From: an uncultured Bacteroidales bacterium | Lineage (GTDB): Bacteria > Bacteroidota > Bacteroidia > Bacteroidales > UBA4417 | Length of the DNA stretch: 38,185 bases | Assembly: GCA_903913645.1 (NCBI GenBank) | Contig: CAIWMA010000439.1 | Coordinates: forward strand, 1 to 38,185 | Reading direction: 5' to 3' | Shown: piece after piece, positions 3,001-32,445 of the stretch | How the letters are laid out: each line of letters begins with the position of its first letter | Position numbering within the stretch: the first letter of the stretch is position 1 | The notes under the pieces: generated by a model | What the model saw: the letters and a program-made list of their open reading frames with translations, nothing else | Told to the model about the DNA's origin: nothing | The model's database searches: none | Position numbers and translations under genes: made by a program

Positions 3001-6000
3001 GTAGTTAAAGTACTGGCACCAGCTTGAGACCTACTATCACTCAAATAAAAATTACTTGCATCATTCGAACTAAAAGTGACCCATGTATTAGCATAATTAT
3101 TTTGACGTACCGTCCATGTAGCATTAGCCACTGTACCTCCAGACGAAGTGTTGGTGGTTGTCCAGCCATTTGGACCTGTAGTTGTACCCGCTGCAACAGA
3201 GTTGAAATTTTCAGAAAGAAGAGTTGGAGAACCTGAAGATGAGATGTTTGAAGACGATGTTAGATTTATGCTTGCACCTGAGCAAATTGTGGTGCTTGAC
3301 GAATTAATTGTTACAACTGGCGCAGGAACAATAGCCACAGAAACAGGATAAGTAACCGGGTTTACACAATCATTGGATTGTAGTGTATATAGGTAGGTAA
3401 CACTAGCAGTAGTAGATGTGTTATTAATAAGTATCTCGTTTGGATTTCCAGTTCCTGATGCTACCGGATTGCCTAAAGCAGCTGCTCTTGTCCATGGGAA
3501 AATAGTACCAACTACATCGCTTGTGGGAACGTAAGAAAAAGTTGTACCTCCGCAGATAGGTGTAGGGCTTGATGTGCTTGTTAAATGAGGCGTTGGAGTA
3601 ACAATAACAACTACATTCTGAATATTTGAACAACCATTTGAAGATAATGTATATACATAGGTAACTGCAATTGGGCTGTTAGTAGTATTTAATAAGTATT
3701 CATCAGGATTACCTGTACCTGAATTAGCTGGATTTGAGATTCCGGCAACAACAGCCCGTGTCCAGTTAAAGGTAGTTCCTAAGGTAGTACTGGTCGGCAT
3801 GTAAGTAAAAGCTACATTACTACATACACCTGTTGGTGTTAGTGTACTTGATAATGTCGGTATGGGATTTACTGTTATGGTAGCTGTTGCTGAATAACTA
3901 GCCGGGCAAGTTCCGTTTTGTACTACTGCCCTGAACTGCGTAGATTGAGTTAATACACCGGAAGTATAGCTTGTTGCTGTATTGACTATATCGGTCCAAC
4001 TTGAGAATGGGCTAACCGAATATTGCCATTTTGTAACTGTTCCTACTTGCCCTGAAAGTGTTAGCAATCCACTGGAACTGCCTGAACAAATAGTGGCACC
4101 TCCTGCAACAGAACCCCCGACTGAAGTAGGTGAAACCGTAACCGTTGTTGAAGCCGAATTTGCCTGACTGCACACTCCACTGGTAACAACCGCCCTGAAT
4201 TCTGTTGTTTGTGTCAATGCCACGGAGGTATAAGTTGAAGCAGTATTTGCGATGTCAATCCAGGTTGAAAATGGACTTACGGAATACTGCCATTTGGTAA
4301 TTGTTCCGGTTTGGCCGGAAAGGGTTAGCAGACCGCTGGTACTGCCCGAACAAATGGTGGTTCCTCCTGAAACTGTGCCACCCACAGAAGTTGGATCAAC
4401 AATTACTGTTGTTGAACCCGAATTTGCTGAACTGCAAATTCCACTTGTTACTACTGCCCTGAATTGTGTTGTTTGTGTTAGTGAACCCGAGGTGTAAGTT
4501 ATTGCGGTATTTGCTATATCAGTCCAACTTAAAAATGGGCTTACCGAGTATTGCCATTTAGTAATTGCTCCGGTTTGTCCGGAAAGGGTTAGCAGACCGC
4601 TGGTACTGCCCGAACAAATTGTGGTTCCTCCGGAAACTGAACCACCTGCAGATATTGGATCAACTGTAACTGTTGTTGGTGATGAATTAGCAGAACTGCA
4701 AATACCACTCGTAATAACTGCCCTGAATTGTATTGTTTGGGCTAAAACTCCGGAAGTAAAGCTTGTGGTTGTATTTGCTATGTCGGTCCAGATTGAGAAT
4801 GGACTTACCGAATATTGCCATTTGGATATAGTTCCGGTGTGTCCTGAAAGGGTAAGTAATCCGCTTGTTGTACCTGAACAAATAGTGGTACCTCCGCTAA
4901 CTGCGCCGCCTACAGACGGTGGATCTACATTAACCGTTGTTGGTGTTGAATTAGCAGAACTACATATGCCACTGGTAACAACCGCCCTGAATTGAGTTGT
5001 TTGTGTTAATGAAACTGAAGTATAGCTTGTCCCTGTATTTGCAATATCAGACCAGCTTGAAAATGGACTTAGCGAATACTGCCACTTTGTTACTGTTCCA
5101 ACTTGCCCGGAGAGAGTTAGCAATCCGCTTGTGCTACCTGAACAAATTGTACTACCTCCACTTACACTTCCTGCAACACTTATTGGATTTACAGTTATGG
5201 TTGCAAATGCTGAGTTCACTACCGCACACACCCCATTTTGCAATACTGCACGATATTGCGTCGTATTTACCAGATTAGTACAATTCTGAGTTGTTGAAGT
5301 ATTACTGATATCGCTCCAACTCGTTCCGCCGTTAACAGAATATTGCCATTTCGTGATAGTACCGGTTTGGCCGATCAGGGTTAGAGTACCTGTGTTGGTT
5401 CCGTAACAAACTGTTGCGTCAGCTGATACAGTTCCTCCAACCGTAGGCTGATTTACTGTAATAGTTACAATTGACGAATTTGCGGATGCACATACACCGC
5501 TTTGAACAACTGCCCGGTACTGAGTTGTAATTATTAGGTTGGTATATGCTTGACTGGTAGTGGTATTGTTGATATCAATCCAGTTTGTTCCTCCATTTGT
5601 TGATGATTGCCATTTGGTTACTGTGCCTGTCTGTCCGCTCAACGACAGCGTTCCGGAGTTAGTACCACTACAAACTATAGCATCTGAGTTAACAGTGCCA
5701 CCTTGCGAAACAGGATCAACAGTAATAGTAAACGTCGAATTTGACCCATTACATCCATTGGCACTCGGCCGCACTGAAACTATAGCGGTAATAGGAGCCG
5801 AAGCGGCATTAATTGCCGTAAAAGACGGAATATTCCCTGTTCCGTTTGCAGACAGACCGATAGTTGTATTATTATTCCCCCAGGTATAAGTGGTTCCTGT
5901 AACCGTCCCTGTAAAAACAATCGCAGGTACATTATCCCCGTTACAATAATCCATATTAGCTGGAACACTGACATTTGGTGTTGGTTTGATAGTGGCATTC

Positions 6001-9000
6001 ACAGTATAATTGCCGGAGCATCCTCCTCCTGTCAGCGAATAAACATAAGGAACAACCACATCGGTCACAGTAGTATTTATGAGTGTCTCGTTTATATTCT
6101 CCGTTCCCATCCCTGCAGGATTACTTATCCCGGGTACTAATGCTCTCATCCATGTCATTGTAGTTCCTGTAACTGAACTAATAGCATTATATATAAATTG
6201 AGTATTGCTGCACACTGCAGGAGGAGAAAGCGAACTTATTAATGCTGGGGCAGGAAAAACAATAACTATAACACTTTGAATTGTTGTACAACCATATGAA
6301 GATAGTGTATAGGAATAGATTACCATTTTTGCAATTCCTGTTGTATTGATCAGTGTTTCACTAATTGGTCCTGTTCCGGAACTTGCTGCATTTTGAATTC
6401 CTAATACTGCAGCCCGTGTCCAACTAAATGCGGTTAAAGGAGTGTTGCTGGCTGGGGTATAACTGAATATACTGTTGCTGCAGACTGAAGTAGAAAGAGG
6501 ACTTGACAATGTGGCCACCGGGCTAACCGTAACAATCACATCAAGAGGGTTTCCGCTACAACTGTTAGCAGTTGGTATAATTGAGTATGTTGCATTAGCT
6601 TGAAGCAATGTTGCATTTATCAGGCTCTGAGCAATAGAGTTACCGGTTCCATTTGCAGCACCGGTTATACTTCCGGAAGGAGAAACTGCATAAGTCCATG
6701 CAAACGTGGTCCCTGAAACAGAGCTTGACAGGGCAATGGAAGTGGCTCCGCCTGAACATATGGTTTGTGAAGAGGGAGTTCCAATGACTGCCGGGTTCGG
6801 ATTCACAGTAATGACAGCCGTTTTTACCAGTCCTGTACAACCATTTGCTGAAGGGGTAATAGTATAGGTTACTGTCCCGGCTATTGTTCCAATTGCATTT
6901 AAGGTTTGGGCTATGGTTAATCCCGAGGCAGCTATAGCTCCATTCACCCCTGATTGAGCGGCTGTCCAGGCAAACGTTGTACCTGCTATATTACTTGAAA
7001 GAGCAACGGATGTAGCTGCTCCCGAACAAATGGTTTGAGTAGCAGGAGCTATACCGGCAACGGGGCTTGGATTTACAGTAATGATAACATTAATAGGAAT
7101 TCCTGCACAACTATTCGCTGTCGGAGTAATAGAATAAGTTGCAGTTCCGGATGTTGTTCCTATTGCTGTAAGTGTTTGACTTATTGTTGATCCTGATCCT
7201 GAAAATGCTCCCGAAACTCCAGACTGTACCACCGACCATGAAAAGGAAGTTGATAATACGTTACTTACCAGGGCGACGGATGTGGCTACACCGGTACACC
7301 TGGTTTGCGATGAAGGTGTAGCAATGGCTACCGGGGTTGGATTTACTGTAATTACAACCGTTTTTATAACTCCTGCACATCCATTGGCTGAGGGCGTAAT
7401 AGAATAAGTTGCGATTCCAACGGTTGTTCCTGTTGCGGTAAGAGGTTGGGCAATTGTTGCGCCCGATCCTGCAGTAGCTCCCGAAACATCCGATTGAACA
7501 ACTGTCCATGAAAATGTAGTGCCTGTAACCGCACTTGTCAGGATTATTGAAGAAGTTGCTCCTGAACAGATAGTCTGCGCTGCCGGAGTGGCAATAGCTA
7601 CCGGGGATGGATTCACTATGATGAGTACTGCATTGCTGATTTTATTTCCACATGCCGGCGTTCCTGTAGCTGTTGCAATTATATGATAATATGTTGATGT
7701 GATTAATGCTGGAGGCTGATAGGTTAATCCAGTCTCTCCATTGATCAGTGACCAGGTAGAATTATTCAGACTTGAATACCATTGATAGGAAAATGTTTCA
7801 TTTGCCCCGGTGGCAGCAGTTGAAGTAAGCTGGAGAGGGGTAGTATTATAGCAGATATTTTGATCTGTCGAAACAACCGGGCTGTTCAGATCAGGAAGAA
7901 CTGTTATTATTAGCACATTACTAATTACCGTTCCACAGGCAGGTGTCCCCTTAGCTGTTGCTACAAGCCTGTAATAGGTTGTAGCAGTTAAAGCAGGTGG
8001 CGAATAAAACCAATAATTGGTAGCTCCTGCAATATCCGTCCAAACAGAATTATCAGGGCTTGATTGCCACTGGTATGTGAAAATTCCGCTTCCGCCTGTC
8101 GCAGTTGTTGCGGATAATGCCGACGGAATCGTATTAAAGCAAATGGTCTGGTTGGCTGAAGCTACAGGTGCTGTAAGATTGGGGCGAACTGTGATTGCAA
8201 TACTGCTACCCGTTGCAGCGCCGCAACTACCCGAAGAAACAATCCTTCTGTAGTACATATTGGATACCAAGGCCCCCGGAGTTAATGTAGGCAAAGTAGA
8301 ATCTGCAATAGTTGTCCAGGTTGAATTATTAAGCGAACTCTGCCACTGGTAAGTATAGCTCCCAGTGCCTCCCGTTGCTGCCAGGAGTTCTGTAAGCCCT
8401 GCAGGGATTGTATTATAACAGATTGTTTGCGCTGAGCCTATCGTCCCGGAAGTTATATTCGGATAAACTGTGATCAAAACCGAATTGCTTGTTCGATAAC
8501 CACAAGCCGGAGAGCCTGTTGCTGTTGCAATAATATGGTAATATGTTGATGAAGTTATTGCTGGTGGTTGGTAGGTTGTTCCTGTCGCACCGCTTAAAAA
8601 ATTCCACGAAGAATTGTTTGTGCTTGAGTACCATTGATAAATGAAAGTACCATTTCCGCCGGAGGCTGTGGTTGTGCTCAGCGATAAAGGCACTGTATTA
8701 TAACAGATAATCTGGTCAGCAGAGGCTACCGGAGTAGTAAGGTCCGGAAGAACCGTTATCGTTAACACATTACTAATTACTGTTCCACATGCTGGTGATC
8801 CTGTAGCTGTGGCAACAAGGCGGTAATATGTTGTAATTATTAAAGCAGTTGCCGGTGTATAAGAGCTATAGTTGTTAGCACCTGCAATATCAGACCACAC
8901 TGAATTATCCGGGCTTGATTGCCATTGGTATGTGAATGTTCCGCTTCCGCCTGTTGCAGGTAAAGATGACATTGCTGATGGAATTGTATTATAGCAGATA

Positions 9001-12000
9001 GTCCGGCTGGTTGAGGCAAAAGGCACTGTCAGGATGGGGCGTACTGTAATTAAAATTCCATTACTGTTTGCAGTACCACAACTCCCAGAAGTTACAATCC
9101 TTCTGTAATACATATTTGCGACCAAAGCTCCCGGAGCTAATGTAGGCGATGTGGAATCTGCAATAGTTGTCCACGTTATATTATTAGGCGAACTCTGCCA
9201 CTGGTAGGTATAGGTCCCGGTTCCACCTGTTGCTGGTGCGAGCTCTGTCATGTTTGCAGGGATAGTATTATAACAGATCGTTTGCGCTGTACCAATAGTT
9301 CCGGCAGTTAAACTGGAATTAACCGTGATTAAAACGGCATTGCTGTTTTTACTTCCACAAGATGGTACACCGGTTGCGGTTGCAACAATGCGGAAATATG
9401 TCGATGTTGTAAGGGCCGAAGGCTGATAAGTTGTTCCTGTCGCACCTGTAATAAGATTCCATGTCAAATTGTTCAGACTCGAAAACCACTGATAATTAAA
9501 TAATCCATTACTACCTGTTGCAGAAGTTGAACTTAGAATAGCAGGTGCCGTGTTGTAACAGATGGTTTGGTCAGCTGAGGCAACAGGGCTGATCAGGTCA
9601 GGTAGTACTGTAATTGTCAGCACATTACTGACTACAGTTCCACAGGCTGGTGTGCCTGTAGCAAAAGCTATTAGCCTAAAGTAAGTTGTTGTTGCTAAAG
9701 TGGCTGGGGTATAGGAACTATAATTATTGGCGCCCGAAATATTAGCCCAAACTGTATTATCTGGGCTTGATTGCCACTGGTATGTGAATGTTCCGCTTCC
9801 ACCGCTTGCACTAGTTGCAGTTAATGCTAACGGAACGGTATTATAACAGATAGTCCGGCTGCCCGAAGCAACTGGTGTTATCATTATGGGGCGAACAGTA
9901 ATCAAAATACCTGTACTTGTTGCTGAACCGCAACTCCCCGAAGTTACGATCCTTCGATAATACAGATTGGATGCCAAAACTCCCGGAGCTAATGTAATTA
10001 ATGTAGAATCCGGAATTGTTGTCCATGTTGAATTATTAGCAGAACTCTGCCACTGGTATGTATAACTACCGGTACCACCGGTAGCTGTTGAAAGTTCAGT
10101 AAGGCCTGCAGGTATACTATTATAACAGATCGTTTGGGCGGTACCTATCGTTCCAGAGGTTACGATGGGATTAATAGTAACAACTTCTGTTGCTGAATTT
10201 GCCACCGGGCAAACCCCATTCTGAACAGCTGCTCTGTAATAGGTGGTTACAACCAGATTTGTTGCAGTATAAGTTGTTCCAGTGTTTGAAATATCGGTCC
10301 AGGTTGTGCCTCCGTTGGTAGAATATTGCCATTTTGTTACTGTTCCTGTTTGGCCCGATAAAGTGAGCAATGTACTATTTGCGCCTGAGCAAACACCGCC
10401 ACCACCGGTTATCAAACCTCCTGCGCTTGCCGGGACAACAGTAACCTTAGCTGATACCGAATTAGCTGCTGTGCAGGATCCATTCTGAACAACTGCTTTA
10501 AAATCGGTGGTTACATTCAGGTTGGTTGTGGTATATGTGATTCCAGTGTTTGAAATATCTGTCCAACTTGAACCTCCATTTGTAGAATATTGCCATTTAA
10601 TTACTGTTCCGGTTTGACCCGATAAAGTGAGAAGGGTACTGTTTGCTCCTGAGCATACACTTGCACCTCCGGTTACGACTCCTCCGGCACTGGCCGGAAT
10701 AACTGTAACAGTAGCAGGCAACGAAATGGCGGAGTTACAAGCGCCATTCTGAACAACTGCTCTGAAATCTGTAGTTACGACCAGGTTGGTCGCGCTATAT
10801 GCAGTTCCGGTATTTGAAATATCAGTCCAACTTGAGCCTCCGTTGGTGGAATACTGCCACTTAATTATTGTTCCGGTTTGGCCCGATAATGTAAGAAGAG
10901 TATTGTTTGTCCCCTGGCATACACTTGCCCCACCGGATATTGCTCCTCCGATACTGGCTGGAATAACTGTAACAGTAGCTGGAACCGAATAAGCAGAAAT
11001 GCAAGTCCCATTCTGAACTATTGCTCTGAAATCAGTACTTACAATCAGGTTTATTGCAGTATATGTAATTCCTGTGCTTGAAATATCGGTCCAGGTTGTA
11101 CCTCCATTAGTGGAATACTGCCATTTAATAACGGTTCCGGTTTGGCCCGACAAAGTTAGCATAGTGCTATTTATTCCAATGCATACGATTGAGCCTCCGG
11201 CTACTGAACCTCCTACACTGGCTGGTATAACCGTAACAGTAGCCGATAACGAATTGTCAGGAATGCAAACGCCATCCTGAACAACTGCCCTGAAATCTGT
11301 GGTTGTAACCAGGTTGGATGCGGTAAATGTTGTTGCGGTATTTGAAATATCAATCCAGGTTGTGCCTCCGTTGGTGGAATATTGCCATTTTGTAATTGCT
11401 CCGGTTTGACCCGATAAAGTGAGTAGTGTACTGTTTGTGCCTGAGCATACTGTTGTTCCACCTGTTATTATACCACCCACACTGGGAGGATCAACGATAA
11501 CAGCAGCTGATAATGAGTTTACGGAGGGGCAAATTCCACTCTGAACTACTGCCCGAAATTCGGTAGTTATTGTAAGGTTGTTTGCTGTATATGTTGTAGC
11601 AGTATTCGTGATATCAGCCCAGATTGTTCCTCCATCTATGGAATATTGCCATTTTGTAACAGTTCCGGTATAACCCGACAATGTCAGGAGTGTGCTGTTT
11701 GTGCCTGAACATACTGTTGTGCTGCCTGCAATTGAACCACCTACACTGGAAGGATCAACGGTAACCATTGCTTGTCCGCTTTGAGCTTGCGAACAGGTAT
11801 TTGCATCGCTCACACTCAATAACGTATACGTATCAATCCCCGGAGTTCCGGTAACGGCATTAATAGTTACAGGGTTTCCCTGCGATGTATTTGTACTTGT
11901 TCCACCGTTAAAAGTATATGTAAAAACGTAAGGAGCTGTACCACCTGTGCCGTTAAAGGTAATCAATGGCAAGGATTGATTCTGGCAAACAGTTGTTGAA

Positions 12001-13919
12001 CCTGAGATAGTTGCTGTCGGCAATGCATTTACGGTGACAGTTACACTTTTTGTAACTGAATTGCTGTTTGCATCTGTAACTGTAACCGAATATGTTATCG
12101 GTCCTGGTGAAGATGTTGGAGGTGTAATCGCTTGTGTTATTTCCCCGTTTGGTGACCATAAATATGTAAAACCAGGATTCCCAACCGCATTGGCAGTTAG
12201 CGTCAACGACGCGCCCTGGCATACTGCTAACGAAGGATTTGCTGCAATGGACACTGATATCGGTGAAGGTATAAGCGAAATGCCGGCAAAATCTGCCGAA
12301 CTGGTAACTCCTGAGGCTGAAATAGTTGGTGCTGTTATAATTCCTGAATTCGACCAGGCTGCTGGAGAACCATTCCAAATTCCGGTTACTATATTAGCTA
12401 TGTTTCCATTTATATCAGCACCTGTATTGACAAAAGTGCCTGTGATATCATATGTGGCAGAACTGATTCCTGATAGATTGACTGACCAGTACCTGGTAAT
12501 AAAATCCGCAGCACTGTTATCCTGAGGATGTTGTCCATCAGTAACCCGTACACCAGCAAAAGATCCTGATGCGAAAGTACCGGAAGTAAAATTCAACGTA
12601 ACAGGAGAATATTCCGCAGTTCCGGTTTTATCACCGATTGGAAATACATATGACCCGATCCCGGTGAAACCACGACGACATTCACCTCCGCCATCAGCTA
12701 CTATCATATTCGTAACAGACGGATTGCCAGCAACTGCCGCAGCACCCAATGTGAGATCATTTGAACCAAGGATCAGATTTCCGTTAGTTAAGGTTAAAGT
12801 ACCATCAATAATTTCGCTGTTTCCAAGCCTAGCTCCTGATGAATTATTCAAAGATAGATTATTGAAAATTGTCTGCTGCGATCCACCTATGTTTTGAGCA
12901 GTTGTGCCAGTTAACCCAAGGCTTCCGTTGTTATTATCAAATATTCCGTTATTAATGAAATCTCCGGCCAGGTTAAGAGTGCCGGAAGTAGTTTTTAAAG
13001 TACCATTATTTATTGTAAGAGCATCAATGGAAATATTCTGGTTACCAAAACTAAGTTCACCAGTGCCATCTTTAACAATGCTGCCGGTTCCGGTGGATGT
13101 ATATAGCAATCCCGGAATAAAAACGTTAGAAGCCCCCTGAATTGTTACAATATTTGCTTTCAGGTTTAGTGCACCGAAAACCAGCAGATCGCCTAAAGCA
13201 CTGCTTATGCTGGAATTAACACCATCGATGTCTATGGAACCAAACCATATATTTGTCCCACTTTTATTTATTAATGAACCACCAGTTGCTCCAGACCCTG
13301 AAAGGCTTAATGCCTCAGATATAGCCATCATTGGAGTACTTTCCAGCTCCAACTGAGCAGCATTATTAACAACAATGCCATTTACACTGCTGCCTGCGCC
13401 CTGCCCGTTCTGAAGGTTTAATATTCCGGCATCAACCGTTGTGATTCCGTCATATAGGTTTGTTCCGGACAGAATTAATTTCCCTGTTCCGCTTTTTGTT
13501 AAATTAGCAGCTGCTCCGCTTATTACTCCCGAAATAGTTAAAGTACCACTTACAGTTATAGATGCAAGCGCAGGCAAAACCAACGGGCATAAGATGGTTG
13601 CCGTTCCCGAAATATCAGTAATTGCAACACCACTTACACCAATAATTGTTAAACTATTCGGACCGGAAATGGATCCGCCAGGCATATCAGTTATGGATCG
13701 GCAGTTCCCATTTACATTCATGGAAACGATTACTCCCGCGCTAATTGTAATATCATCTCCAATACCAGGGAATCCTATACCACCCCAGGTAGCCGGATCA
13801 TTCCAATTTCCATTTTGGATGGCTGTAAAGGAAGCTCCTTTAACAATATTCCCAATAGAGAGAAGTAAAAAGAACAACCCTATTAGAAGATAATGCCGTA
13901 TATGGAGTATTTTTTTCAA
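1..13919 (-). CDS. Giant multi-domain repeat surface protein (SprB/adhesin-like), C-terminus outside window
   Basis: One open frame runs from a TTG at 13919 to the left edge, 4,639 complete codons. I checked the codon phase at about a dozen conserved Trp, Asp and Asn positions along its length and at the left edge, and it never shifts. Residues 1-29 are a Lys-rich start plus hydrophobic stretch, a likely signal peptide. Residues 30-543 are Ser/Thr/Gly/Asn-rich beta-helix-like sequence. From 544 onward come Ig/PKD-like domains, each with a Cys near the first strand and another near the last, in several repeat arrays (listed separately). There are jelly-roll-like domains at about 3564-3747 and 4054-4247, and SprB-like repeats at about 4537 to the end. 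Known relatives are T9SS-exported adhesins and gliding proteins of Bacteroidota. Cell-surface adhesion is inferred. The usual C-terminal sorting domain is not visible. No ATG exists in frame upstream, so the start is uncertain (see the leader ORF at 13916-13945). Confidence 0.93.
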   Translation of the reverse strand, partial: MKKILHIRHYLLIGLFFLLLSIGNIVKGASFTAIQNGNWNDPATWGGIGFPGIGDDITISAGVIVSMNVNGNCRSITDMPGGSISGPNSLTIIGVSGVAITDISGTATILCPLVLPALASITVSGTLTISGVISGAAANLTKSGTGKLILSGTNLYDGITTVDAGILNLQNGQGAGSSVNGIVVNNAAQLELESTPMMAISEALSLSGSGATGGSLINKSGTNIWFGSIDIDGVNSSISSALGDLLVFGALNLKANIVTIQGASNVFIPGLLYTSTGTGSIVKDGTGELSFGNQNISIDALTINNGTLKTTSGTLNLAGDFINNGIFDNNNGSLGLTGTTAQNIGGSQQTIFNNLSLNNSSGARLGNSEIIDGTLTLTNGNLILGSNDLTLGAAAVAGNPSVTNMIVADGGGECRRGFTGIGSYVFPIGDKTGTAEYSPVTLNFTSGTFASGSFAGVRVTDGQHPQDNSAADFITRYWSVNLSGISSATYDITGTFVNTGADINGNIANIVTGIWNGSPAAWSNSGIITAPTISASGVTSSADFAGISLIPSPISVSIAANPSLAVCQGASLTLTANAVGNPGFTYLWSPNGEITQAITPPTSSPGPITYSVTVTDANSNSVTKSVTVTVNALPTATISGSTTVCQNQSLPLITFNGTGGTAPYVFTYTFNGGTSTNTSQGNPVTINAVTGTPGIDTYTLLSVSDANTCSQAQSGQAMVTVDPSSVGGSIAGSTTVCSGTNSTLLTLSGYTGTVTKWQYSIDGGTIWADITNTATTYTANNLTITTEFRAVVQSGICPSVNSLSAAVIVDPPSVGGIITGGTTVCSGTNSTLLTLSGQTGAITKWQYSTNGGTTWIDISNTATTFTASNLVTTTDFRAVVQDGVCIPDNSLSATVTVIPASVGGSVAGGSIVCIGINSTMLTLSGQTGTVIKWQYSTNGGTTWTDISSTGITYTAINLIVSTDFRAIVQNGTCISAYSVPATVTVIPASIGGAISGGASVCQGTNNTLLTLSGQTGTIIKWQYSTNGGSSWTDISNTGTAYSATNLVVTTDFRAVVQNGACNSAISLPATVTVIPASAGGVVTGGASVCSGANSTLLTLSGQTGTVIKWQYSTNGGSSWTDISNTGITYTTTNLNVTTDFKAVVQNGSCTAANSVSAKVTVVPASAGGLITGGGGVCSGANSTLLTLSGQTGTVTKWQYSTNGGTTWTDISNTGTTYTATNLVVTTYYRAAVQNGVCPVANSATEVVTINPIVTSGTIGTAQTICYNSIPAGLTELSTATGGTGSYTYQWQSSANNSTWTTIPDSTLITLAPGVLASNLYYRRIVTSGSCGSATSTGILITVRPIMITPVASGSRTICYNTVPLALTATSASGGSGTFTYQWQSSPDNTVWANISGANNYSSYTPATLATTTYFRLIAFATGTPACGTVVSNVLTITVLPDLISPVASADQTICYNTAPAILSSTSATGSNGLFNYQWFSSLNNLTWNLITGATGTTYQPSALTTSTYFRIVATATGVPSCGSKNSNAVLITVNSSLTAGTIGTAQTICYNTIPANMTELAPATGGTGTYTYQWQSSPNNITWTTIADSTSPTLAPGALVANMYYRRIVTSGSCGTANSNGILITVRPILTVPFASTSRTICYNTIPSAMSSLPATGGSGTFTYQWQSSPDNSVWSDIAGANNYSSYTPATALIITTYYRLVATATGSPACGTVISNVLTITVLPDLTTPVASADQIICYNTVPLSLSTTTASGGNGTFIYQWYSSTNNSSWNFLSGATGTTYQPPAITSSTYYHIIATATGSPACGYRTSNSVLITVYPNITSGTIGSAQTICYNTIPAGLTELLAATGGTGSYTYQWQSSLNNSTWTTIADSTLPTLTPGALVSNMYYRRIVSSGSCGAATGSSIAITVRPNLTAPVASANQTICFNTIPSALSATTATGGSGIFTYQWQSSPDNSVWTDIAGATNYWFYSPPALTATTYYRLVATAKGTPACGTVISNVLIITVLPDLNSPVVSTDQNICYNTTPLQLTSTAATGANETFSYQWYSSLNNSTWSLINGETGLTYQPPALITSTYYHIIATATGTPACGNKISNAVLIIVNPSPVAIATPAAQTICSGATSSIILTSAVTGTTFSWTVVQSDVSGATAGSGATIAQPLTATGTTVGIATYSITPSANGCAGVIKTVVITVNPTPVAIATPSSQTRCTGVATSVALVSNVLSTSFSWSVVQSGVSGAFSGSGSTISQTLTAIGTTSGTATYSITPTANSCAGIPINVIITVNPSPVAGIAPATQTICSGAATSVALSSNIAGTTFAWTAAQSGVNGAIAASGLTIAQTLNAIGTIAGTVTYTITPSANGCTGLVKTAVITVNPNPAVIGTPSSQTICSGGATSIALSSSVSGTTFAWTYAVSPSGSITGAANGTGNSIAQSLINATLLQANATYSIIPTANSCSGNPLDVIVTVSPVATLSSPLSTSVCSNSIFSYTPASNTPLTAFSWTRAAVLGIQNAASSGTGPISETLINTTGIAKMVIYSYTLSSYGCTTIQSVIVIVFPAPALISSLSPPAVCSNTQFIYNAISSVTGTTMTWMRALVPGISNPAGMGTENINETLINTTVTDVVVPYVYSLTGGGCSGNYTVNATIKPTPNVSVPANMDYCNGDNVPAIVFTGTVTGTTYTWGNNNTTIGLSANGTGNIPSFTAINAASAPITAIVSVRPSANGCNGSNSTFTITVDPVSQGGTVNSDAIVCSGTNSGTLSLSGQTGTVTKWQSSTNGGTNWIDINNTTTSQAYTNLIITTQYRAVVQSGVCASANSSIVTITVNQPTVGGTVSADATVCYGTNTGTLTLIGQTGTITKWQYSVNGGTSWSDISNTSTTQNCTNLVNTTQYRAVLQNGVCAVVNSAFATITVNPISVAGSVSGGSTICSGSTSGLLTLSGQVGTVTKWQYSLSPFSSWSDIANTGTSYTSVSLTQTTQFRAVVTSGICSSANSTPTTVNVDPPSVGGAVSGGTTICSGTTSGLLTLSGHTGTISKWQYSVSPFSIWTDIANTTTSFTSGVLAQTIQFRAVITSGICSSANSSPTTVTVDPISAGGSVSGGTTICSGSTSGLLTLSGQTGAITKWQYSVSPFLSWTDIANTAITYTSGSLTQTTQFRAVVTSGICSSANSGSTTVIVDPTSVGGTVSGGTTICSGSTSGLLTLSGQTGTITKWQYSVSPFSTWIDIANTASTYTSVALTQTTEFRAVVTSGVCSQANSASTTVTVSPTSVGGSVAGGATICSGSSSGLLTLSGQVGTVTKWQYSVSPFSSWTDIVNTATSYTSGVLTQSTQFRAVVQNGTCPASYSATATITVNPIPTLSSTLTPTGVCSNVAFTYMPTSTTLGTTFNWTRAVVAGISNPANSGTGNPDEYLLNTTNSPIAVTYVYTLSSNGCSNIQNVVVIVTPTPHLTSTSSPTPICGGTTFSYVPTSDVVGTIFPWTRAAALGNPVASGTGNPNEILINNTSTTASVTYLYTLQSNDCVNPVTYPVSVAIVPAPVVTINSSSTTICSGASINLTSSSNISSSGSPTLLSENFNSVAAGTTTGPNGWTTTNTSSGGTVANATWTVRQNNYANTWVTFSSNDASNFYLSDSRSQAGASTLTTLVSPQINTTNYTSLTLDFYDYFNDRGAGNGDYAYIDISTNNGTSWTALSVPDYNENTSHGTSNGFVHQSINLSAYIGNTNFKFRYRYVATNDRYWAIDNISLSGTPSATATIAWTSIPVGFTSNIATPTNVTPSTTTTYIATYTDPVTNCPGSNSVVVTVNPVPAMTSSNTASVCSGGTVNIPLIASVPSTFAWVAVSNANVTGESTTSQSTSTLSNTLTNATSSVQTVVYTVTPTGTAGSCVGSPQTVTVTVNPIPSVTQPANQTFCSAASTTAIAFAGSGVTGTAYNWTNDNPGIGLAASGTGTIASFTAVNSGTTPIIANIVVTPVANGCSGTAKTFTITVNPTPTPTIVSDYCTYRSIGKVRLTSSTCASCTYSWNTGATLNYIDVDLAGNYTVTVTNASGCSASSSIAVAQELVVNGNFSAGNSGFTSDYAYKVDQPGLVPAGQGELYDDSGINGYSIVNNGQNVHTYFFGIDHTQNVTGNKNFMIVNGHGTLVVWKETVTVQPNTDYYFAAWAMSVNDAGNYAQLRFAVNGVQVGTTATLGAGPNTVALANTNTYWTRFYSNPKWNSGALSGPVVLSIVDLNTSLPGNDFGIDDISFGTLASVPFSISASSNSPAASPICSRGTLNLTSTITGGSPPIVYSWTGPNGFTSSLANPVVSNIAHDAGGVYTVSVLDAYNCPGTTASTTVVLNPTPEVPNQLLDVCSGTLFNATPINGVPNASTFVPPAPEITAYTWAAPVVTGGLTGGASGTGLLSITGTLTNPTTNIQTATYTITPFTYTGTPATPKCTGTPFTLVVTVYPTAIVSAGANRTVCADAPGVTLAGTKGGGASSASWTGGTTAGFNPDRNSLTAIYTPTAAEITAGSVILTLTTNDPAGPCGAVSASMTITIDALPVLSAVATNVNCFGGNTGAVNLTVTGTATPYTYAWTASAGGVVPGGQSALQNLTNLVAGTYTVVVTGHTPNTCIATTSITITQPAAALSVTGVVTGMLCAG
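3870..5717 (-). repeat. Array D: seven 264-bp tandem repeats, second array of the 88-aa domain
   Basis: Trp codons lie at 5610, 5346, 5082, 4818, 4554, 4290 and 4026, again exactly 264 bp apart. The units are homologous to array A (TICSG, LTLSGQTG, TKWQYS, QFRAVV). Inner copies carry SVSPFSSW where array A has STNGGTTW. Neighbouring units share runs of near-identical DNA; for example about 40 bases around 4318-4356 recur around 4582-4620, which suggests recent homogenisation. Residues about 2735-3350. Confidence 0.95.
6525..7613 (-). repeat. Array C: four 90-aa Ig-like repeats
   Basis: Trp codons lie at 7506, 7236, 6966 and 6696, a 270-bp period; the last unit is slightly longer. The shared motifs are NPxPVAxAxP, QTICSG, FSWTV or FAWT, and ATYSITPSANGC. 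Residues about 2103-2465 of the giant protein. Confidence 0.9.
7614..10172 (-). repeat. Array B: three copies of a three-domain (about 852-855 bp) super-repeat
   Basis: Nine Ig-like domains have Trp anchors at 10050, 9774, 9486, 9198, 8922, 8631, 8343, 8067 and 7779. The spacings are 276, 288, 288, 276, 291, 288, 276 and 288. Domains 1, 4 and 7 share the motifs YQWQSS and YYRRIVTSGSCG. Domains 2, 5 and 8 share SSPDN and ATGTPACG-like motifs. Domains 3, 6 and 9 share YQWYSS/YQWFSS. The unit of duplication was therefore a triplet. Nearly all domains carry TICYN near the start. Residues about 1250-2102. Confidence 0.92.
10173..11756 (-). repeat. Array A: six 264-bp tandem repeats (88-aa Ig-like domain)
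   Basis: Unit starts fall at 11756, 11492, 11228, 10964, 10700 and 10436. The conserved Trp codons (KWQYS motif) lie at 11649, 11385, 11121, 10857, 10593 and 10329, exactly 264 bp apart. Each unit carries VCSG-type and NGxC-type cysteines and the motifs LTLSGQTG, KWQYSTNGG and FRAVVQNG. The lack of any indel in six copies points to recent amplification or homogenisation, or to strong length constraint. Residues about 722-1249 of the giant protein. Confidence 0.95.
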
Positions 13920-27061: not shown

Positions 27062-28891
27062 CTATAGTTTAACCATATCAACTGTTTGCTTATGTAACTT
27101 GTTTAGAGCCAGGTTTTCGGCAACAACTTCAGCAATATCTTTCACTACAGTTGCATTTCCAGAATCAAAAGTCTTTTTACAGAGCGGGCAAGCAGTAACC
27201 AGTATGTCAGGTTGAGATTCGCAGAGAATTGTAAGCGCTTTGTCCCTTATCAAATTTCGTTTTACGGCATCCATGTTTAAATCGCCAATGCTTCCTCCGC
27301 AACAAAGTGAGTTCACACGTTCTTCAGAAACATCGGCCACTTCGGCGATTTGTTTCAACACATTTCGTGGTTGTTCGTAAATTCCTGATCCTCTCCCTAA
27401 TTCGCATGGATCGTGATAAACGGCTTTGAGATCAGTTTGCCTCAATACTAGTTTGCCATCCTTAACCAGGTTATAAATAAAAACTGAATGGTGCATCACC
27501 TGAATTCCGTCCAACTGATAATCATCATTAAAGACCTTGTAGCATATTGGGCATGAAGTAACCAATATTTTAGCTTCTGTATTTTTTATTTTTGCGGAGT
27601 TTTCTGAAATAAGTGTAAGAGAAGCCTCTTTCATCCCGGCAAGTTTCAATGGACGGCCACAACATACCGATCCATCTTCATCCAGAAAGGTAAAATCAAT
27701 TTTTGCTTTTTCGAAAATCTGCAACATAGCCCGTTTAACGCCGGGAGTAAGATGGCCCATACAACCAGCAAAATAAACGACTTCAGCCTTTTTTTCAACA
27801 ATAGGTTGGTTAACAAGATACGTAAAATCAGAGGCAAAACCTTTATTATCAACACCTCTGGCTCCTATTCTCAATCCGAGTGTATCAATTCCAACCGGGC
27901 ATACTTCGAGACACCGGCCGCACATCATGCAGTTCGAATTAAGCTGAACCTCAGGCAGTTTTTCGCGTAATGAGCGGATAAAGTACACGGCTGTTGATCC
28001 TGTAAGCCCGGCCTGGTTCATCTGGCAAACATCGATACAAACGCCGCACCGTGGACACGAACGTATTTCTATTTCACTGAAGCTTCCAGGATATTTACCT
28101 TGATCGATTCCCGCGTTACGTAAAAAGATTAGAATGATTTCCGTAGGAATATGCATAAATCTACTCCAGGGAAGTGTTACAAAGAAAATGCCGAGCATTG
28201 TAGAATATGCCCACCAGGCAGGGTAAGCCATGTATTCTAGAGGGAGAATTGCGTCGAAAATACTGCCCAGTGTGTTGGTAAGAAATCCTCCCCCTTTGTA
28301 TATTCCTGCGGTAAAACTCTCGGCAAGAAGACGCATCGGGAAAATAAGCCAGAGCGAAGTGATTGCCCACCTGTCAAAACTATTATGAACAGTTGTTCTT
28401 TTCAATCCAAACCATTTTGATCGTGTTCGTTTTATAACTGCTAGAACTAATCCTGACAAAACAAATAAAAGAATCAAATCCATTGTAAACCTGAAAAAGC
28501 CAGGCAAAGTGAATATTTCAAAGGGAAGCACCCGTTTGTCGTGAATAAAAAATTTTAGAAAGATAGGGTAATAAGGTGGATTGATATGCCCGCCGCTATA
28601 GACGCGTGATTCAATGTTTCCCATCACAATCAGCAAAAACCACCCAAGTGCAAAACTCATATGCATGTAGCCCAGCAACGGATTCCTTTTAAACATCCGT
28701 CGATGCAAAAGGCTTTCAAGGAAAATTTCATTTACTGTTTTCAGCAAATTAAAAGAGAAAAGTGCCATTCCTGCCTTCACCCGATCGGATGCATCCATCA
28801 TGGCAATCCAGCGGCTGTATTTAACCACTAAAACACCCAGAAGGAATAATAATCCGATAAAAAATGGAAGTACAAAAAGGTCAAAGGTCAT
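27062..28891 (-). CDS. Membrane cytochrome b-HdrD fusion, heterodisulfide-reductase-like
   Basis: A 609-residue protein. Residues 1-255 form five or six TM helices resembling the NarI/HdrE/QmoC cytochrome b module, with candidate heme His residues such as His76. Then come two 4Fe-4S motifs, Cys279/282/285/289 and Cys321/324/327/331. Two complete CCG domains follow: Cys377, Cys410-411, Cys447/450, and Cys496, Cys530-531, Cys568/571. In HdrD such motifs bind the non-cubane 4Fe-4S clusters that reduce disulfides. The fusion predicts electron transfer between the quinone pool and a thiol/disulfide or similar two-electron substrate. It is the last gene of the five-gene set, about 50 bp after the small HdrC-like gene. 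The substrate is unknown. Confidence 0.9.
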   Translation of the reverse strand: MTFDLFVLPFFIGLLFLLGVLVVKYSRWIAMMDASDRVKAGMALFSFNLLKTVNEIFLESLLHRRMFKRNPLLGYMHMSFALGWFLLIVMGNIESRVYSGGHINPPYYPIFLKFFIHDKRVLPFEIFTLPGFFRFTMDLILLFVLSGLVLAVIKRTRSKWFGLKRTTVHNSFDRWAITSLWLIFPMRLLAESFTAGIYKGGGFLTNTLGSIFDAILPLEYMAYPAWWAYSTMLGIFFVTLPWSRFMHIPTEIILIFLRNAGIDQGKYPGSFSEIEIRSCPRCGVCIDVCQMNQAGLTGSTAVYFIRSLREKLPEVQLNSNCMMCGRCLEVCPVGIDTLGLRIGARGVDNKGFASDFTYLVNQPIVEKKAEVVYFAGCMGHLTPGVKRAMLQIFEKAKIDFTFLDEDGSVCCGRPLKLAGMKEASLTLISENSAKIKNTEAKILVTSCPICYKVFNDDYQLDGIQVMHHSVFIYNLVKDGKLVLRQTDLKAVYHDPCELGRGSGIYEQPRNVLKQIAEVADVSEERVNSLCCGGSIGDLNMDAVKRNLIRDKALTILCESQPDILVTACPLCKKTFDSGNATVVKDIAEVVAENLALNKLHKQTVDMVKL

Positions 28892-28943
28892 TGCAGTGGG
28901 TCAGGGGTTAGGATTTGGTTATTGGGATTCAGGGATGAATTTA

Positions 28944-29315
28944 CTATTTAGTATTTACAGTTTCTGCTGACAACTTTTTATCATACAAAGCTTTACCAAT
29001 TTGGATTACAAGATTACGGGTACTTACATTCCGCGGACAAACCAATTGACATTTACCGCAAAGCATACATTTTGAAACTTCATTTTCCAGGCTTTTTGTC
29101 TCGCCACGACGTAATAAAAGGATAACCTGCCTGAGGCTGAAATCAGTAAACTGACCAGCTGTGCATGTAGCAGCGCAAGTTCCGCACGAAATACAGAGAT
29201 TTAATGTAGGTTCAGCTTTTGCAATAATCTTACAGATATCATGGTTGTTGGCATCATAATCAATCTGCCTGTCTCGCGTTATTGAATATCCAAAGTATTT
29301 CGCTTTCTTTTCCAT
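28944..29315 (-). CDS. Small HdrC-like 4Fe-4S dicluster protein
   Basis: A 123-residue protein with two cubane cluster motifs, Cys41/44/47/51 (CISCGTCAATC) and Cys83/86/89/93 (CMLCGKCQLVC). These lie in a helical frame typical of HdrC and the soluble half of QmoC. The usual Pro after the first motif is Thr. It lies 9 bp after the HdrA-like gene and probably passes electrons between that flavoprotein and the membrane subunit. It differs from the longer HdrC at 31531-32241, so the operon holds two HdrC-type subunits. Confidence 0.88.
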   Translation of the reverse strand: MEKKAKYFGYSITRDRQIDYDANNHDICKIIAKAEPTLNLCISCGTCAATCTAGQFTDFSLRQVILLLRRGETKSLENEVSKCMLCGKCQLVCPRNVSTRNLVIQIGKALYDKKLSAETVNTK

Positions 29316-29324
29316 AAAAGCCGC

Positions 29325-30344
29325 TTATGATTTCAGGTAATCTGCAACTGCCAATGCAGCAGAACGGGCATCGGCAAGCGTGTCGGAAACAGATTTCGGA
29401 CCGGAACAAGTACCGGCAACAAAAACGCCAGGTATTTCAGTACTATTAGTATGTAATACTTCGTCAAGCGGCTGAATAAATCCATCGGACACATTTTTTA
29501 AGCCTAACATGTTAGCCAGGGGTTTTGTATCGGGAGCAGGTTCCATACCTGCCATCAGAACCAATAAACCAACTTTGATGCGGAGAGGTTTGCCCAACAA
29601 GGTATCCTCAACTTTCACTACAATGTTACCGTCTCTATCTTCGGTTGATTCGCTGAGCCTGCCACGGATAAACTGAATATTGTATTTTTCCTGTGCTTCT
29701 TTGTAAAGCTCTTCATAATGCCGGCCGAACATGCGCAAGTCCATATAAAAACAGAAAACTTCGGCATCGGGAAGCAATTGTTTGACCTCAATGGCTTGTT
29801 TAACAGCAGTAATACAACATACTTTTGAGCAATGCAGGTTGTTGACTTTTTCATCGCGGGAGCCTACGCAATGCACAAAACCAACCCTTTCGGGTTTATT
29901 GCCATGCCTGTTTACAAAAGCTTTCCCCGAAGCAAACAATTCTTCCAGATCGGCTGAAGTGATTACATTCTCATAAATTCCATAACCATACTCTTCTTTA
30001 CGATGAGAATCGAAAAGCTGAAATCCTGTAGTCAGTACAACTGCATCGGCCTTTTCCTGCCAGCCATTGTGGCCGGAAATTGTGAAATAATCATTTACAG
30101 CTTCCAGTCCTGTTACTTTAGTAGCTGTTTGAATTTTAATACTACTGTCTAATCCTTTCGTGATAGTCTCAAGGGCATCCTTCCCAGATAAAAGAGTTGG
30201 GAACAGGGCATGCCATTTTTTGAGATGACCGCCGGACACATCCTCCTTTTCAACCAATGTAACATGGAAACCCAACTTCGCCAGGCTTGCCGAAGTTTCG
30301 AGTCCTGCCGGACCAGCTCCAATTACAACTACGTGTTTTCCCAT
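29325..30344 (-). CDS. HdrA/QmoA-like FAD oxidoreductase subunit
   Basis: A 339-residue flavoprotein. The N-terminal Rossmann motif is VVVIGAGPAGLETS (6-19). The HdrA-specific insertion is present: HCVGSRDE, then HCSKVCC (Cys159, 172, 176, 177), which binds a 4Fe-4S cluster near the FAD in HdrA. GTCSGPKSVSDTLADARSAA (311-330) closes the FAD site. Compared with methanogen HdrA it lacks the N-terminal domain and both C-terminal ferredoxin domains, so it is closer to QmoA in layout. Classic flavin bifurcation with a partner hydrogenase or formate dehydrogenase is not supported locally. It lies 113 bp after HdrB and 9 bp before the small HdrC. Confidence 0.9.
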   Translation of the reverse strand: MGKHVVVIGAGPAGLETSASLAKLGFHVTLVEKEDVSGGHLKKWHALFPTLLSGKDALETITKGLDSSIKIQTATKVTGLEAVNDYFTISGHNGWQEKADAVVLTTGFQLFDSHRKEEYGYGIYENVITSADLEELFASGKAFVNRHGNKPERVGFVHCVGSRDEKVNNLHCSKVCCITAVKQAIEVKQLLPDAEVFCFYMDLRMFGRHYEELYKEAQEKYNIQFIRGRLSESTEDRDGNIVVKVEDTLLGKPLRIKVGLLVLMAGMEPAPDTKPLANMLGLKNVSDGFIQPLDEVLHTNSTEIPGVFVAGTCSGPKSVSDTLADARSAALAVADYLKS

Positions 30345-30457
30345 GTTTTTGTTTAGATCAGCGATATCTCTCTATGTAGGTATAAAAAAAGATTTAAAAA
30401 CAAAGATTAACGATTTCAAATTCAGCCTTTGAATTAAACCAGGAAGAAATGCTGGCA

Positions 30458-31534
30458 TTACTCCGAATAAAACTTAAGATACGAAGGTGATTCGGGCATC
30501 CCCAGATCTTCCCCGTTTTTACCTTTAAACTTTCGTGAAGAATCATACGGTATTCCAATTTTATCCAGAAGAGGTTCAGCCGGAACCTGGTGTACCTGCA
30601 AGCCAATTTCCCATGGATCATAACCCATAATCATACCGGCAACTTCCTCATACGTAAATACCGGGATTCCATTATGGTTTTCCCCATACGTTTTTCCTTC
30701 CATTTCGCTGAGTGCATATTGCCAGCGGTCAAGGAACATAGGGCAGCCTGGGCAATTGGTTATAATCATATCAGGTTCATAGGGCTCCATCGACTCAAAT
30801 TTCTTTTTTGAACAGGAAAGTGAGAACCCTCGGTTAGCCTGAACGAGATACTGTCGGAATCCGAAGCCGCAACAATGGCGACGCTCCGGATAATCGATAA
30901 CTTCGCCGCCCCAGGCTTCAATCATTCCAGAAAGAACATAAGGATATTCGGCACCGCCAATACCTTTGTGTGGGAACATTTTTGAATAATGGCAACCTAT
31001 ATGTTCAACAACTTTTAATGGCTTTCCTGTATTTTTATCGACCAGTTTATATTTTGCTTTTGCCGCAATCTGATGCCTGAATTTATAGACAATATCGCTG
31101 GCATGCGCCAGGTTTTTTGGCTTGGTGAATTCACGGCCGGTTGCTTTGAAAAGATATTCTCTTATCTGTGCTTCCTTTTCAGGAAAATGATGCCAGGTAT
31201 CCAGGATTTCGGTATACAACCCGAAACTGGTAACACACGACGCTGCATAATTTTCGTAGCCGGCTTCCGTCATAAGCGCAAATTGCCTGGCAACAACGGT
31301 CATGGTAGTATCGAACGGAACCACATCCGAATGGTAGCCAATACCTGTGCAGGAAGTATGATGTTGCTCGTCGTGAATATCCTTGCCAAGTTCATCTTTC
31401 AGAATTTTTACAAACACAGCTTCGGCTCCCGGGAAGAAAGTCTGCCTGATACAGCTTCGGGCATAAAAATAATGATCATCGGCAATTTCCTTCTGATAAT
31501 CCTGCCATATCAGCCTTTTCCCTTCTAACTTCAT
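30458..31534 (-). CDS. HdrB-like CCG-domain subunit
   Basis: A 358-residue protein. The C-terminal CCG motif is complete: Cys181, Cys221-222 (HCCGFG) and Cys261/264 (NCPGC), as needed for one non-cubane 4Fe-4S cluster. The N-terminal copy is reduced: Cys28, a single Cys62 (SCTG in place of CCG) and Cys100 without its CxxC partner. This predicts one active cluster rather than the two of methanogen HdrB. Its ATG overlaps the HdrC stop by 4 bp (ATGA), so the pair is translationally coupled. The roughly 70-residue C-terminal extension has no motif I recognise. Cytosolic catalytic subunit by analogy. Confidence 0.9.
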   Translation of the reverse strand: MKLEGKRLIWQDYQKEIADDHYFYARSCIRQTFFPGAEAVFVKILKDELGKDIHDEQHHTSCTGIGYHSDVVPFDTTMTVVARQFALMTEAGYENYAASCVTSFGLYTEILDTWHHFPEKEAQIREYLFKATGREFTKPKNLAHASDIVYKFRHQIAAKAKYKLVDKNTGKPLKVVEHIGCHYSKMFPHKGIGGAEYPYVLSGMIEAWGGEVIDYPERRHCCGFGFRQYLVQANRGFSLSCSKKKFESMEPYEPDMIITNCPGCPMFLDRWQYALSEMEGKTYGENHNGIPVFTYEEVAGMIMGYDPWEIGLQVHQVPAEPLLDKIGIPYDSSRKFKGKNGEDLGMPESPSYLKFYSE

Positions 31535-32241
31535 TCGTGATTGTGTTTTTGATTGTTGGCAGTATATATATGCTGGAAATATTCACTATTGGTATCAGTA
31601 CCGAATTCAAGGCCCATTTCGGCGGCTTTTTCCTTCGAAAATTCCTCTATCTTGTCGTATCTTTCCTGCCCGCCGGTAATTTCAAATATTTTCTGCAATT
31701 CGTCAAGATCATCCTGCGAAATTTTTCGCAAGGCACCCGAACCTTCGCCATTATAATTTGCCCCAAGCTTATTCATGACCGGAATCAGGTTTTTATGTTC
31801 CCAGTCCCAGACAGGCCCTTGTTCGGGATGCATTCCCGGATCAACCATATCCGGACGCACACAATATCCTGAAGCTAAAATCTGATCACCAATGGTGCGC
31901 TTTACGGCTAGTTGCTGGCGGCCTTTTTCGGATTCGGTAAAAAATCCCATATCCTGGGATACCGACCGCAAAGCCATAATAAGCAATCCCGGGGCATTGC
32001 CACGCGGACACCGGGTTTTGCAGGACATACACTCGCCACAATACCAGATAGCATCACTGCTCATCAGTTCACGGATTTTTTCGTCATCCTGCGACTGGAC
32101 AGTAGTAGCGATAACCCTTGGATCGTAATTGTAAAATTCGGCAGCAGGGCATATTGCGGTGCATGTTCCGCAGTTTATACAGGCTTTCAGGCTTTCAACA
32201 AACCTGATATCATCTGCCAGCCGGTTATAAAGTTCGCCCAA
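31531..32241 (-). CDS. HdrC-like 4Fe-4S dicluster subunit
   Basis: A 236-residue protein with cluster motifs Cys21/24/27/31 (CINCGTCTAIC) and Cys68/71/74/78 (CGECMSCKTRC), then a long C-terminal region (about 100-236) absent from simple HdrC proteins. The start is TTG at 32241: a TAA lies four codons upstream and no ATG intervenes. It is the first gene of the Hdr-like operon and overlaps HdrB by 4 bp. The predicted role is to wire HdrB to the HdrA-like flavoprotein. The His/Asn-rich last residues have no obvious role. Confidence 0.9.
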   Translation of the reverse strand: MGELYNRLADDIRFVESLKACINCGTCTAICPAAEFYNYDPRVIATTVQSQDDEKIRELMSSDAIWYCGECMSCKTRCPRGNAPGLLIMALRSVSQDMGFFTESEKGRQQLAVKRTIGDQILASGYCVRPDMVDPGMHPEQGPVWDWEHKNLIPVMNKLGANYNGEGSGALRKISQDDLDELQKIFEITGGQERYDKIEEFSKEKAAEMGLEFGTDTNSEYFQHIYTANNQKHNHE

Positions 32242-32346
32242 AATATTTAATTATGGTGGTGGAGTAAATACTTTTATCTTTATGAATATCAAACAGATAA
32301 AAGTAATTTTAAATCTGATTTTATATATTCAGAATTAAATATCGGG

Positions 32347-32379
32347 CAAAGATAAATTAATCGCTCTTAAAGAATCAAA
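32347..32379 (-). promoter_or_regulatory. Promoter of the Hdr-like operon
   Basis: TTTG (32379-32376), a 21-nt spacer and TATCTTTG (32354-32347) on the minus strand fit the Bacteroidota consensus. The predicted leader is about 100 nt before the TTG start at 32241. Confidence 0.65.
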
Positions 32380-32404: not shown

Positions 32405-32445
32405 AATAAAAATAGCAGGGATAGAAACCTGCTATTTTATTTTAT
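32405..32445. terminator. Terminator after the pyrE/SRPBCC operon
   Basis: AATAGCAGG (32411-32419) pairs with CCTGCTATT (32428-32436). A-rich DNA on the left gives T residues on the minus strand, and T-rich DNA follows on the plus strand. Confidence 0.75.

Follow-up and report, generated by a model that had tools for sequence, protein, structure and literature searches.

The contig CAIWMA010000439.1 of the assembly GCA_903913645.1 is a stretch of 38,185 nucleotides from an uncultured Bacteroidales bacterium (UBA4417); this whole stretch is called the window below. It contains an operon of five genes on the minus strand (27062-32241), designated C1, B, A, C2, and D from 5' to 3', whose products are related to heterodisulfide reductase (Hdr). 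Taken together, the analyses suggest that the operon might encode a quinone-linked sulfur oxidoreductase, acting on a thiol, a persulfide, or a disulfide. We assign this reading a probability of roughly 0.45, and within it oxidation of the substrate is weighed against reduction at about 60:40. An earlier reading of this DNA alone (the original prediction) had described the complex as a mosaic with parts of HdrABC, HdrDE, and Qmo; on sequence grounds, an sHdr-type core joined to an HdrED-like subunit seems the better description.

Conservation of the gene order

A profile of B was searched against genome contigs, and at least 592 relatives were found. The best 80 of these, together with 20 stretches from relatives, make up the sample of 100 loci (L and G numbers are our own, for loci and genomes). 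The titles of the best 80 loci name Bacteroidota lineages. Two of the loci (L044 and L062) are one contig, and some contigs end within D. The order C1-B-A-C2-D was found in 87 of the 100 loci. Several of the remaining 13 are cut by contig ends; two are second copies of C1-B (L042 and L047), one has the operon genes split (L053), and one has C1-B followed by unrelated genes (L079). Because the order is kept in 87 loci, it is beyond chance. The intergenic gaps are short, with medians of 4, 11.5, 3, and -4 bp along C1-B-A-C2-D (71 loci measured for the A-C2 gap). The original prediction had proposed such a search of relatives, and its claim of five co-directional Hdr-like genes, including a cytochrome b-CCG fusion, agrees with the open reading frames (ORFs), the Pfam and NCBIfam matches, the model of D, and the conserved order.

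Among 247 genomes of the order Bacteroidales, the short A was found in 78, B in 78, and D in 77, and all three were found in 76. The operon set is widespread in this order and is carried by about a third of the sampled genomes; its earlier placement in a single Bacteroidota genome was correct and understated its spread. The exceptions are G463 with B only, G640 with A and B, and G027 with A and D, where B is cut by a contig end. A-C2-D and C1-B are on separate contigs in G498, and so are B-A and C2-D in G016. In a phylum-wide draw of 395 genomes, the best B match apart from the window's own genome had an E-value of 3.4e-35. The operon carriers include a cultured organism, Butyricimonas synergistica DSM 23225 (L112).

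The membrane subunit D

Judged by its sequence and its structural model, D (27062-28891, minus strand, 609 residues) clearly combines a five-helix cytochrome b domain, two cubane ([4Fe-4S]) clusters, and two complete Hdr-type CCG domains in one HdrED/EtfD-like chain. Pfam identified a Fer4-type pair and two CCG stretches in D, and no match was found for the cytochrome b part. The cytochrome b assignment was made because of the five transmembrane-length helices in the model (pLDDT 87.4), the invariant histidines H63, H77, and H247, and the EtfD fold match. These histidines lie in the membrane domain (residues 1-265; 28097-28891, minus strand) and, like all 18 Fe-S cysteines, are invariant in 81 of 81 aligned rows. 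Because of the heme histidines and the fold, D is probably linked to quinone, which supports the earlier proposal of a quinone-linked Hdr-type membrane complex acting on a sulfur, disulfide, or other two-electron substrate. All ten Hdr-type CCG cysteines are kept. The first CCG domain (27533-27781, minus strand) contains C377, C410, C411, C447, and C450, with Ile449 at the His position of EtfD-type proteins; position 449 is Ile in 80 of the 81 rows and Val in one. The second (27167-27421, minus strand) contains C496, C530, C531, C568, and C571.

EtfD is the best match of D in both fold and PDB sequence. The model aligned with EtfD (9ojn) over the whole chain (E 1.3e-21, TMq 0.70, rmsd 8.8), and by model and sequence D appears to have the cytochrome b-FeS-CCG fold and the heme histidines of this family. 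D might thus be an electron transfer flavoprotein (ETF):menaquinone oxidoreductase (EMO/EtfD), and the operon would then form a branch of the ETF-linked oxidation of fatty or amino acids. In agreement with this explanation, 25 of 27 operon-positive relatives have EtfA; however, it is as common without the operon (30 of 33), a difference that is not significant in a test for which the E cut-offs were chosen by us and the genomes are not independent. The same 27 operon-positive genomes (those with a strong B match, plus G027) and 33 operon-negative genomes were used for all association tests below. One genome that is 100% complete and has the full operon (G044) gave no ETF_alpha match. Etf genes are absent from the operon and were found near it in only one of the 100 loci (L109, about 5 kb off and on the other strand).

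The window's own genome also has a separate cluster, on contig C462, in which EtfB, EtfA, a cytochrome b-FeS protein, and a CCG protein are found together. According to an excerpt of PMC13083937, the CCG1 of EtfD has a Thr at the second Hdr Cys, plus a His that completes the second cluster, and this cluster is called non-catalytic; EtfD itself is described as an electron wire. The EtfBA-linked CCG protein of the genome follows this pattern (C,C,T,C,H,C), whereas D has C,C,C,C,I,C. H77 and H247 are shared with the genome's own EMO, and the invariant H63 is an extra feature of D. From these ligands and the complete second site, D is therefore predicted to hold a paired Hdr-type site. By its sequence, D is unlikely to be the main ETF acceptor of the genome. 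The EMO explanation, to which we give little probability, was rejected as unlikely in view of the separate EtfD-type cluster, the differing ligands, and the lack of EtfA in G044.

In domain plan and ligands, D resembles the HdrDE of methanogens, with cytochrome b, Fe-S, and two complete CCG sites; it differs in that these parts are fused as one chain and are found with C1-B-A-C2. The HdrDE-like part of the original prediction can be kept in this form, as a one-chain subunit of the HdrED/EtfD fold with Hdr-type cluster ligands, a wording that fits better than the mosaic. The complex might also be a menaquinol-driven disulfide reductase like HdrDE, in which D would transfer electrons of menaquinol to a disulfide, either of low molecular weight or in a protein; this would serve as an electron sink or for redox control. 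Both Hdr-type noncubane sites are complete in D, unlike those of the EtfD-type wires, which is consistent with such a reductase. However, it would leave the sHdr-type flavoprotein arm and the invariant one-cluster B unexplained, and by eye no nearby gene could be recognized for a special thiol cofactor. We regard this possibility as unlikely, although worth keeping in view.

The soluble subunits and the known Hdr systems

Sequence comparison established C1, B, and A as homologues of the sHdr core, and C2 as a small protein with two [4Fe-4S] motifs. C1 (31531-32241, minus strand, 236 residues, TTG start) is an HdrC-like protein with two [4Fe-4S] motifs, as indicated by the ORF, Pfam, NCBIfam, and the alignment, and its additional cysteine C127 is invariant in 86 of 86 aligned sequences. 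C2 (28944-29315, minus strand, 123 residues) is also HdrC-like. Fer4-type pairs were found by Pfam in both proteins. The NCBIfam matches were HdrC for C1, HdrB for B, and the HdrA core for A; none of the five proteins reached a curated NCBIfam cut-off among the matches listed.

B (30458-31534, minus strand, 358 residues) has an HdrB fold in the model (pLDDT 84.7), with 5odc_B as the best match (TMt 0.86), and one CCG match in Pfam. The C-terminal CCG domain is complete (C181, C221, C222, C261, and C264). The N-terminal one is reduced and keeps three of the five cysteines (C28, C62, and C100); in 95 of 95 rows, Thr, Ser, or Gly stands at position 63 and Ser at position 103. This degenerate motif (C..SC..C-x-T-S) and an insert after the CCG are common to B, a cyanobacterial B1, and two type-II-like B1 proteins. 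B is of the sHdrB1 type as judged against these cyanobacterial and type-II-like rows, none of which has been experimentally studied. The C1 and B trees have long branches, and the B tree, used for coarse splits only, separates B and the same B1 proteins from three canonical HdrB rows and the cyanobacterial B2 (100/100).

A (29325-30344, minus strand, 339 residues) is a short FAD protein of the HdrA/sHdrA type with a Pyr_redox_2 match. Residues 3-333 align with the sHdrA structure 6tjr over its full length (2-336 of 349, E 5.8e-64), and the best stretch against HdrA2 is 97-335 against 316-558 of 777. The cysteines C159, C172, C176, and C177 are kept in 88 of 88 rows and align with those of sHdrA and HdrA. 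In the A tree, which includes one experimentally studied sHdrA row, the sHdrA and HdrA rows form one side of a split (98/98); the other side holds the A proteins of Bacteroidales and of a Picosynechococcus plasmid, along with one long QmoB-like row, and the branching within it is mostly not settled. Of the HdrB and HdrA trees proposed with the original prediction, the first groups B with B1 types, and the second leaves A outside the sHdrA clade of Hyphomicrobium denitrificans and the type-II-like rows.

The FAD motifs and the HdrA-core cysteine set kept in A would also be compatible with flavin-based bifurcation or confurcation, in which electrons would be divided by A, one share going to a low-potential carrier (ferredoxin) and the other via C2-D to menaquinone. 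However, A, at 339 residues, is too short to hold the additional domains found in long HdrA, and the operon has no ferredoxin reductase, MvhD, or Flx gene. The short sHdrA-type flavoprotein is not known to bifurcate, and we consider this explanation improbable. MvhD, Flx, adenylylsulfate reductase, and hydrogenase genes were not recognized nearby by eye among the window ORFs, as the original prediction had noted.

HdrABC and QmoABC share an HdrA-core flavoprotein and HdrC-type ferredoxins with the operon. A differs from its HdrABC counterpart in lacking the flanking HdrA domains, and B in having one degenerate site, with Cys lost at positions 63 and 103. The QmoABC reading was rejected, and the earlier Qmo-like label does not hold: there is no QmoB/QmoC-type subunit and no Qmo-specific feature was found. 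The matches of C1 and C2 to the qmoC model are confined to its HdrC-like part, and D has CCG domains, which QmoC is not known to contain.

Two types of sHdr are described in an excerpt of PMC11582611: type I is defined by the synteny C1B1A-H-C2B2, and type II has C1B1A-H-B3 and etfAB in one cluster. The operon is similar to type I of H. denitrificans in having homologues of C1, B1, A, and C2 in the same order, a short HdrA, and a B of the sHdrB1 kind. It differs in that there is no H gene between A and C2, no separate B2, and no LbpA seen; D follows C2 in the place of B2, and A lies outside the sHdrA clade. The C1-B1-A core is shared with type II as well, and no B3 or etf gene is found in the operon. 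Two loci from genomes of the same phylum (L171 and L173) carry C1-B1-A, a B3-like protein, EtfAB, a cytochrome b-CCG protein, and a GcvH-type protein (Pfam check on L171 only), a set that fits type II as given in that excerpt. The type-II-like cytochrome b-CCG protein and B3 have lost the CCG1 cysteines; in D, all CCG cysteines remain.

The plasmid of Picosynechococcus PCC 7003 (NZ_CP016476.1) has the order C1-B1-A-C2-B2. C1, B, and A share 42-47% identity with its proteins, and a two-CCG protein also stands at the end; C2 is only about 31% identical, and B2 is soluble (290 residues). The protein after B2 resembles SQR weakly, scoring 83 bits where the cut-off is 525, and no gene is annotated as LbpA or GcvH in a 19-kb stretch of the plasmid.

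By the tested features, the complex is a member of neither sHdr type I nor type II, EMO, HdrABC, or Qmo. By sequence, the nearest known plan appears to be the soluble sulfur-oxidizing sHdr system and not Qmo. The C1-B-A(-C2) part follows the sHdr plan in the 6tjr match, the sHdrB1-type motifs, and the cyanobacterial gene order, a description that fits better than the mosaic of the original prediction. Among the matches listed, no study describing the five-subunit complex was found by title or abstract start.

Proposed electron flow, the possible sulfur link, and flanking genes

The five products may form one membrane-anchored Hdr-type complex. D would be an inner-membrane protein whose Fe-S part extends into the cytoplasm, and its heme b (H77/H247) would exchange electrons with menaquinone. 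The two cubanes of D would wire the heme to the paired noncubane clusters, and electron transfer between the FAD/[4Fe-4S] protein A and D would go through C2. C1-B would be an exchangeable front end that meets the substrate. The substrate might be a cytoplasmic thiol, persulfide, or disulfide, and electrons might flow from it to the menaquinone pool more often than in reverse.

In the overall analysis, the sulfur link appears to be based on homology and on a minority of neighborhoods. A methionine-gamma-lyase-like gene lies directly 3' of D in 4 of the 100 loci (L049, L093, L099, and L102) and occurs in 3 of 10 second C1-B loci. In two near-identical assemblies (L049 and L099), TusA, FlpD/MvhD-type, and HdrA/QmoC-like genes are found upstream of the operon. 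In L047, sulfur-transport (YeeE), rhodanese, and DsrE-like genes lie 1-7 kb from C1-B.

The complex might also carry out an sHdr-like oxidation of sulfane sulfur to sulfite, with an unrecognized carrier in place of LbpA. The core homology and the gene plan of sHdr are in favor of it. An excerpt of PMC11129491, which gives no gene order, reports heterodisulfide reductase genes in Black Sea isolates including Bacteroidota, and sulfide detoxification is suggested there. However, A is outside the sHdrA clade, and two genomes with the full operon, 98-99% complete (G019 and G033), have no GCV_H match at E 0.001 (60 genomes searched, 27 with the operon). LbpA is essential in the sHdr of H. denitrificans according to an excerpt of PMC6067878; it seems not to be required by the operon, because these two genomes do without a GCV_H match. 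We consider oxidation to sulfite unlikely, although still a candidate. It overlaps the quinone-linked sulfur oxidoreductase as a special case, as does the menaquinol-driven reductase, whereas the ETF and bifurcation explanations exclude that oxidoreductase.

Several observations weigh against a quinone-linked sulfur oxidoreductase. The sulfur neighbors are absent from most of the 100 loci, the window included, and no neighbor family beyond the five genes occurs in more than 9 of them. The methionine-gamma-lyase-type gene is not enriched with the operon (17/27 vs 15/33, p 0.20). No LbpA-type carrier was found in G019 and G033, so that no known sulfur carrier would serve the complex there. In G463 (92% complete), C1-B occurs but D and the short A do not, and in G640 (76% complete) A and B are likewise found in the absence of D; the coupling of A, B, and D is therefore not strict. 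Two genomes with the operon, both 99% complete (G016 and G056), have no strong UbiE/MenG match. A home-made menaquinone pool is therefore not universal, and scavenging or another quinone would be needed. UbiE/MenG (24/27 vs 30/33), CydA (18/27 vs 26/33), and GcvH (25/27 vs 30/33) are not significantly associated with the operon.

A more specific proposal is held more tentatively. The operon could represent a third sHdr-like class, independent of LbpA and ETF, in which B2 is replaced by a one-chain membrane subunit of the HdrED type whose double noncubane site is intact. In about one third of Bacteroidales genomes, such a complex would provide a previously unrecognized respiratory connection from a cytoplasmic sulfur compound to menaquinone, and its C1-B front ends could be exchanged to suit different substrates. 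If so, many Bacteroidales of gut, lake, groundwater, and digester (habitats suggested by record titles) would possess a branch of electron transport, hidden so far, that is linked to sulfur or thiols. The operon would also be a natural case in which a fused membrane subunit holds the Hdr catalytic site and is combined with a soluble arm of the sHdr type, and some of its hosts are cultured.

Related genes were also found outside the operon. Ten second-type C1-B loci (L042, L047, and L203-L210) without A-C2-D beside them form a recurrent cluster, with a DUF134 gene in seven and an OsmC-like gene in two; NifX/IssA-like and Mrp/ApbC-type ATPase genes were recognized by eye in several. An HdrA/Qmo-like gene pair, named by eye, is present in the window's own genome (contig C17, L215 3-3247). 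GCV_H-type domains, which are not ordinary GcvH, occur in ORFs of about 560-600 and 240-250 residues in the same genome (G000:C313:44198-47638) and in genomes of the same genus. On an A. ferrooxidans plasmid (L170 8749-10089), a lone B-like CCG protein lies near globin, hemerythrin, and GcvH-annotated genes.

Upstream of the operon, the window contains an SRPBCC-like gene (Pfam match just under the cut-off) and pyrE (named by eye), and downstream an XylF-like binding protein; each of these families is a neighbor in at most 6 of the 100 loci. A terminator-like hairpin of 11 pairs (32409-32438) lies between the SRPBCC gene and C1, and 11 such hairpins were observed in the window against 6.4 expected. 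A possible Bacteroidetes-type promoter, TTTG-N21-TATCTTTG, is located upstream of C1 (32347-32379, minus strand); it follows the Bacteroidetes consensus. The pattern alone is not significant, since it was found twice in the window against 1.6 expected by chance, and the single promoter of the original prediction is not borne out. A sigma-70 pattern scan of the window gave no excess (16 found, 19.2 expected), and Rfam found nothing at gathering thresholds. At the left end of the window, an ORF of 4639 residues (3-13919, minus strand) extends past the window end and encodes a very large protein.

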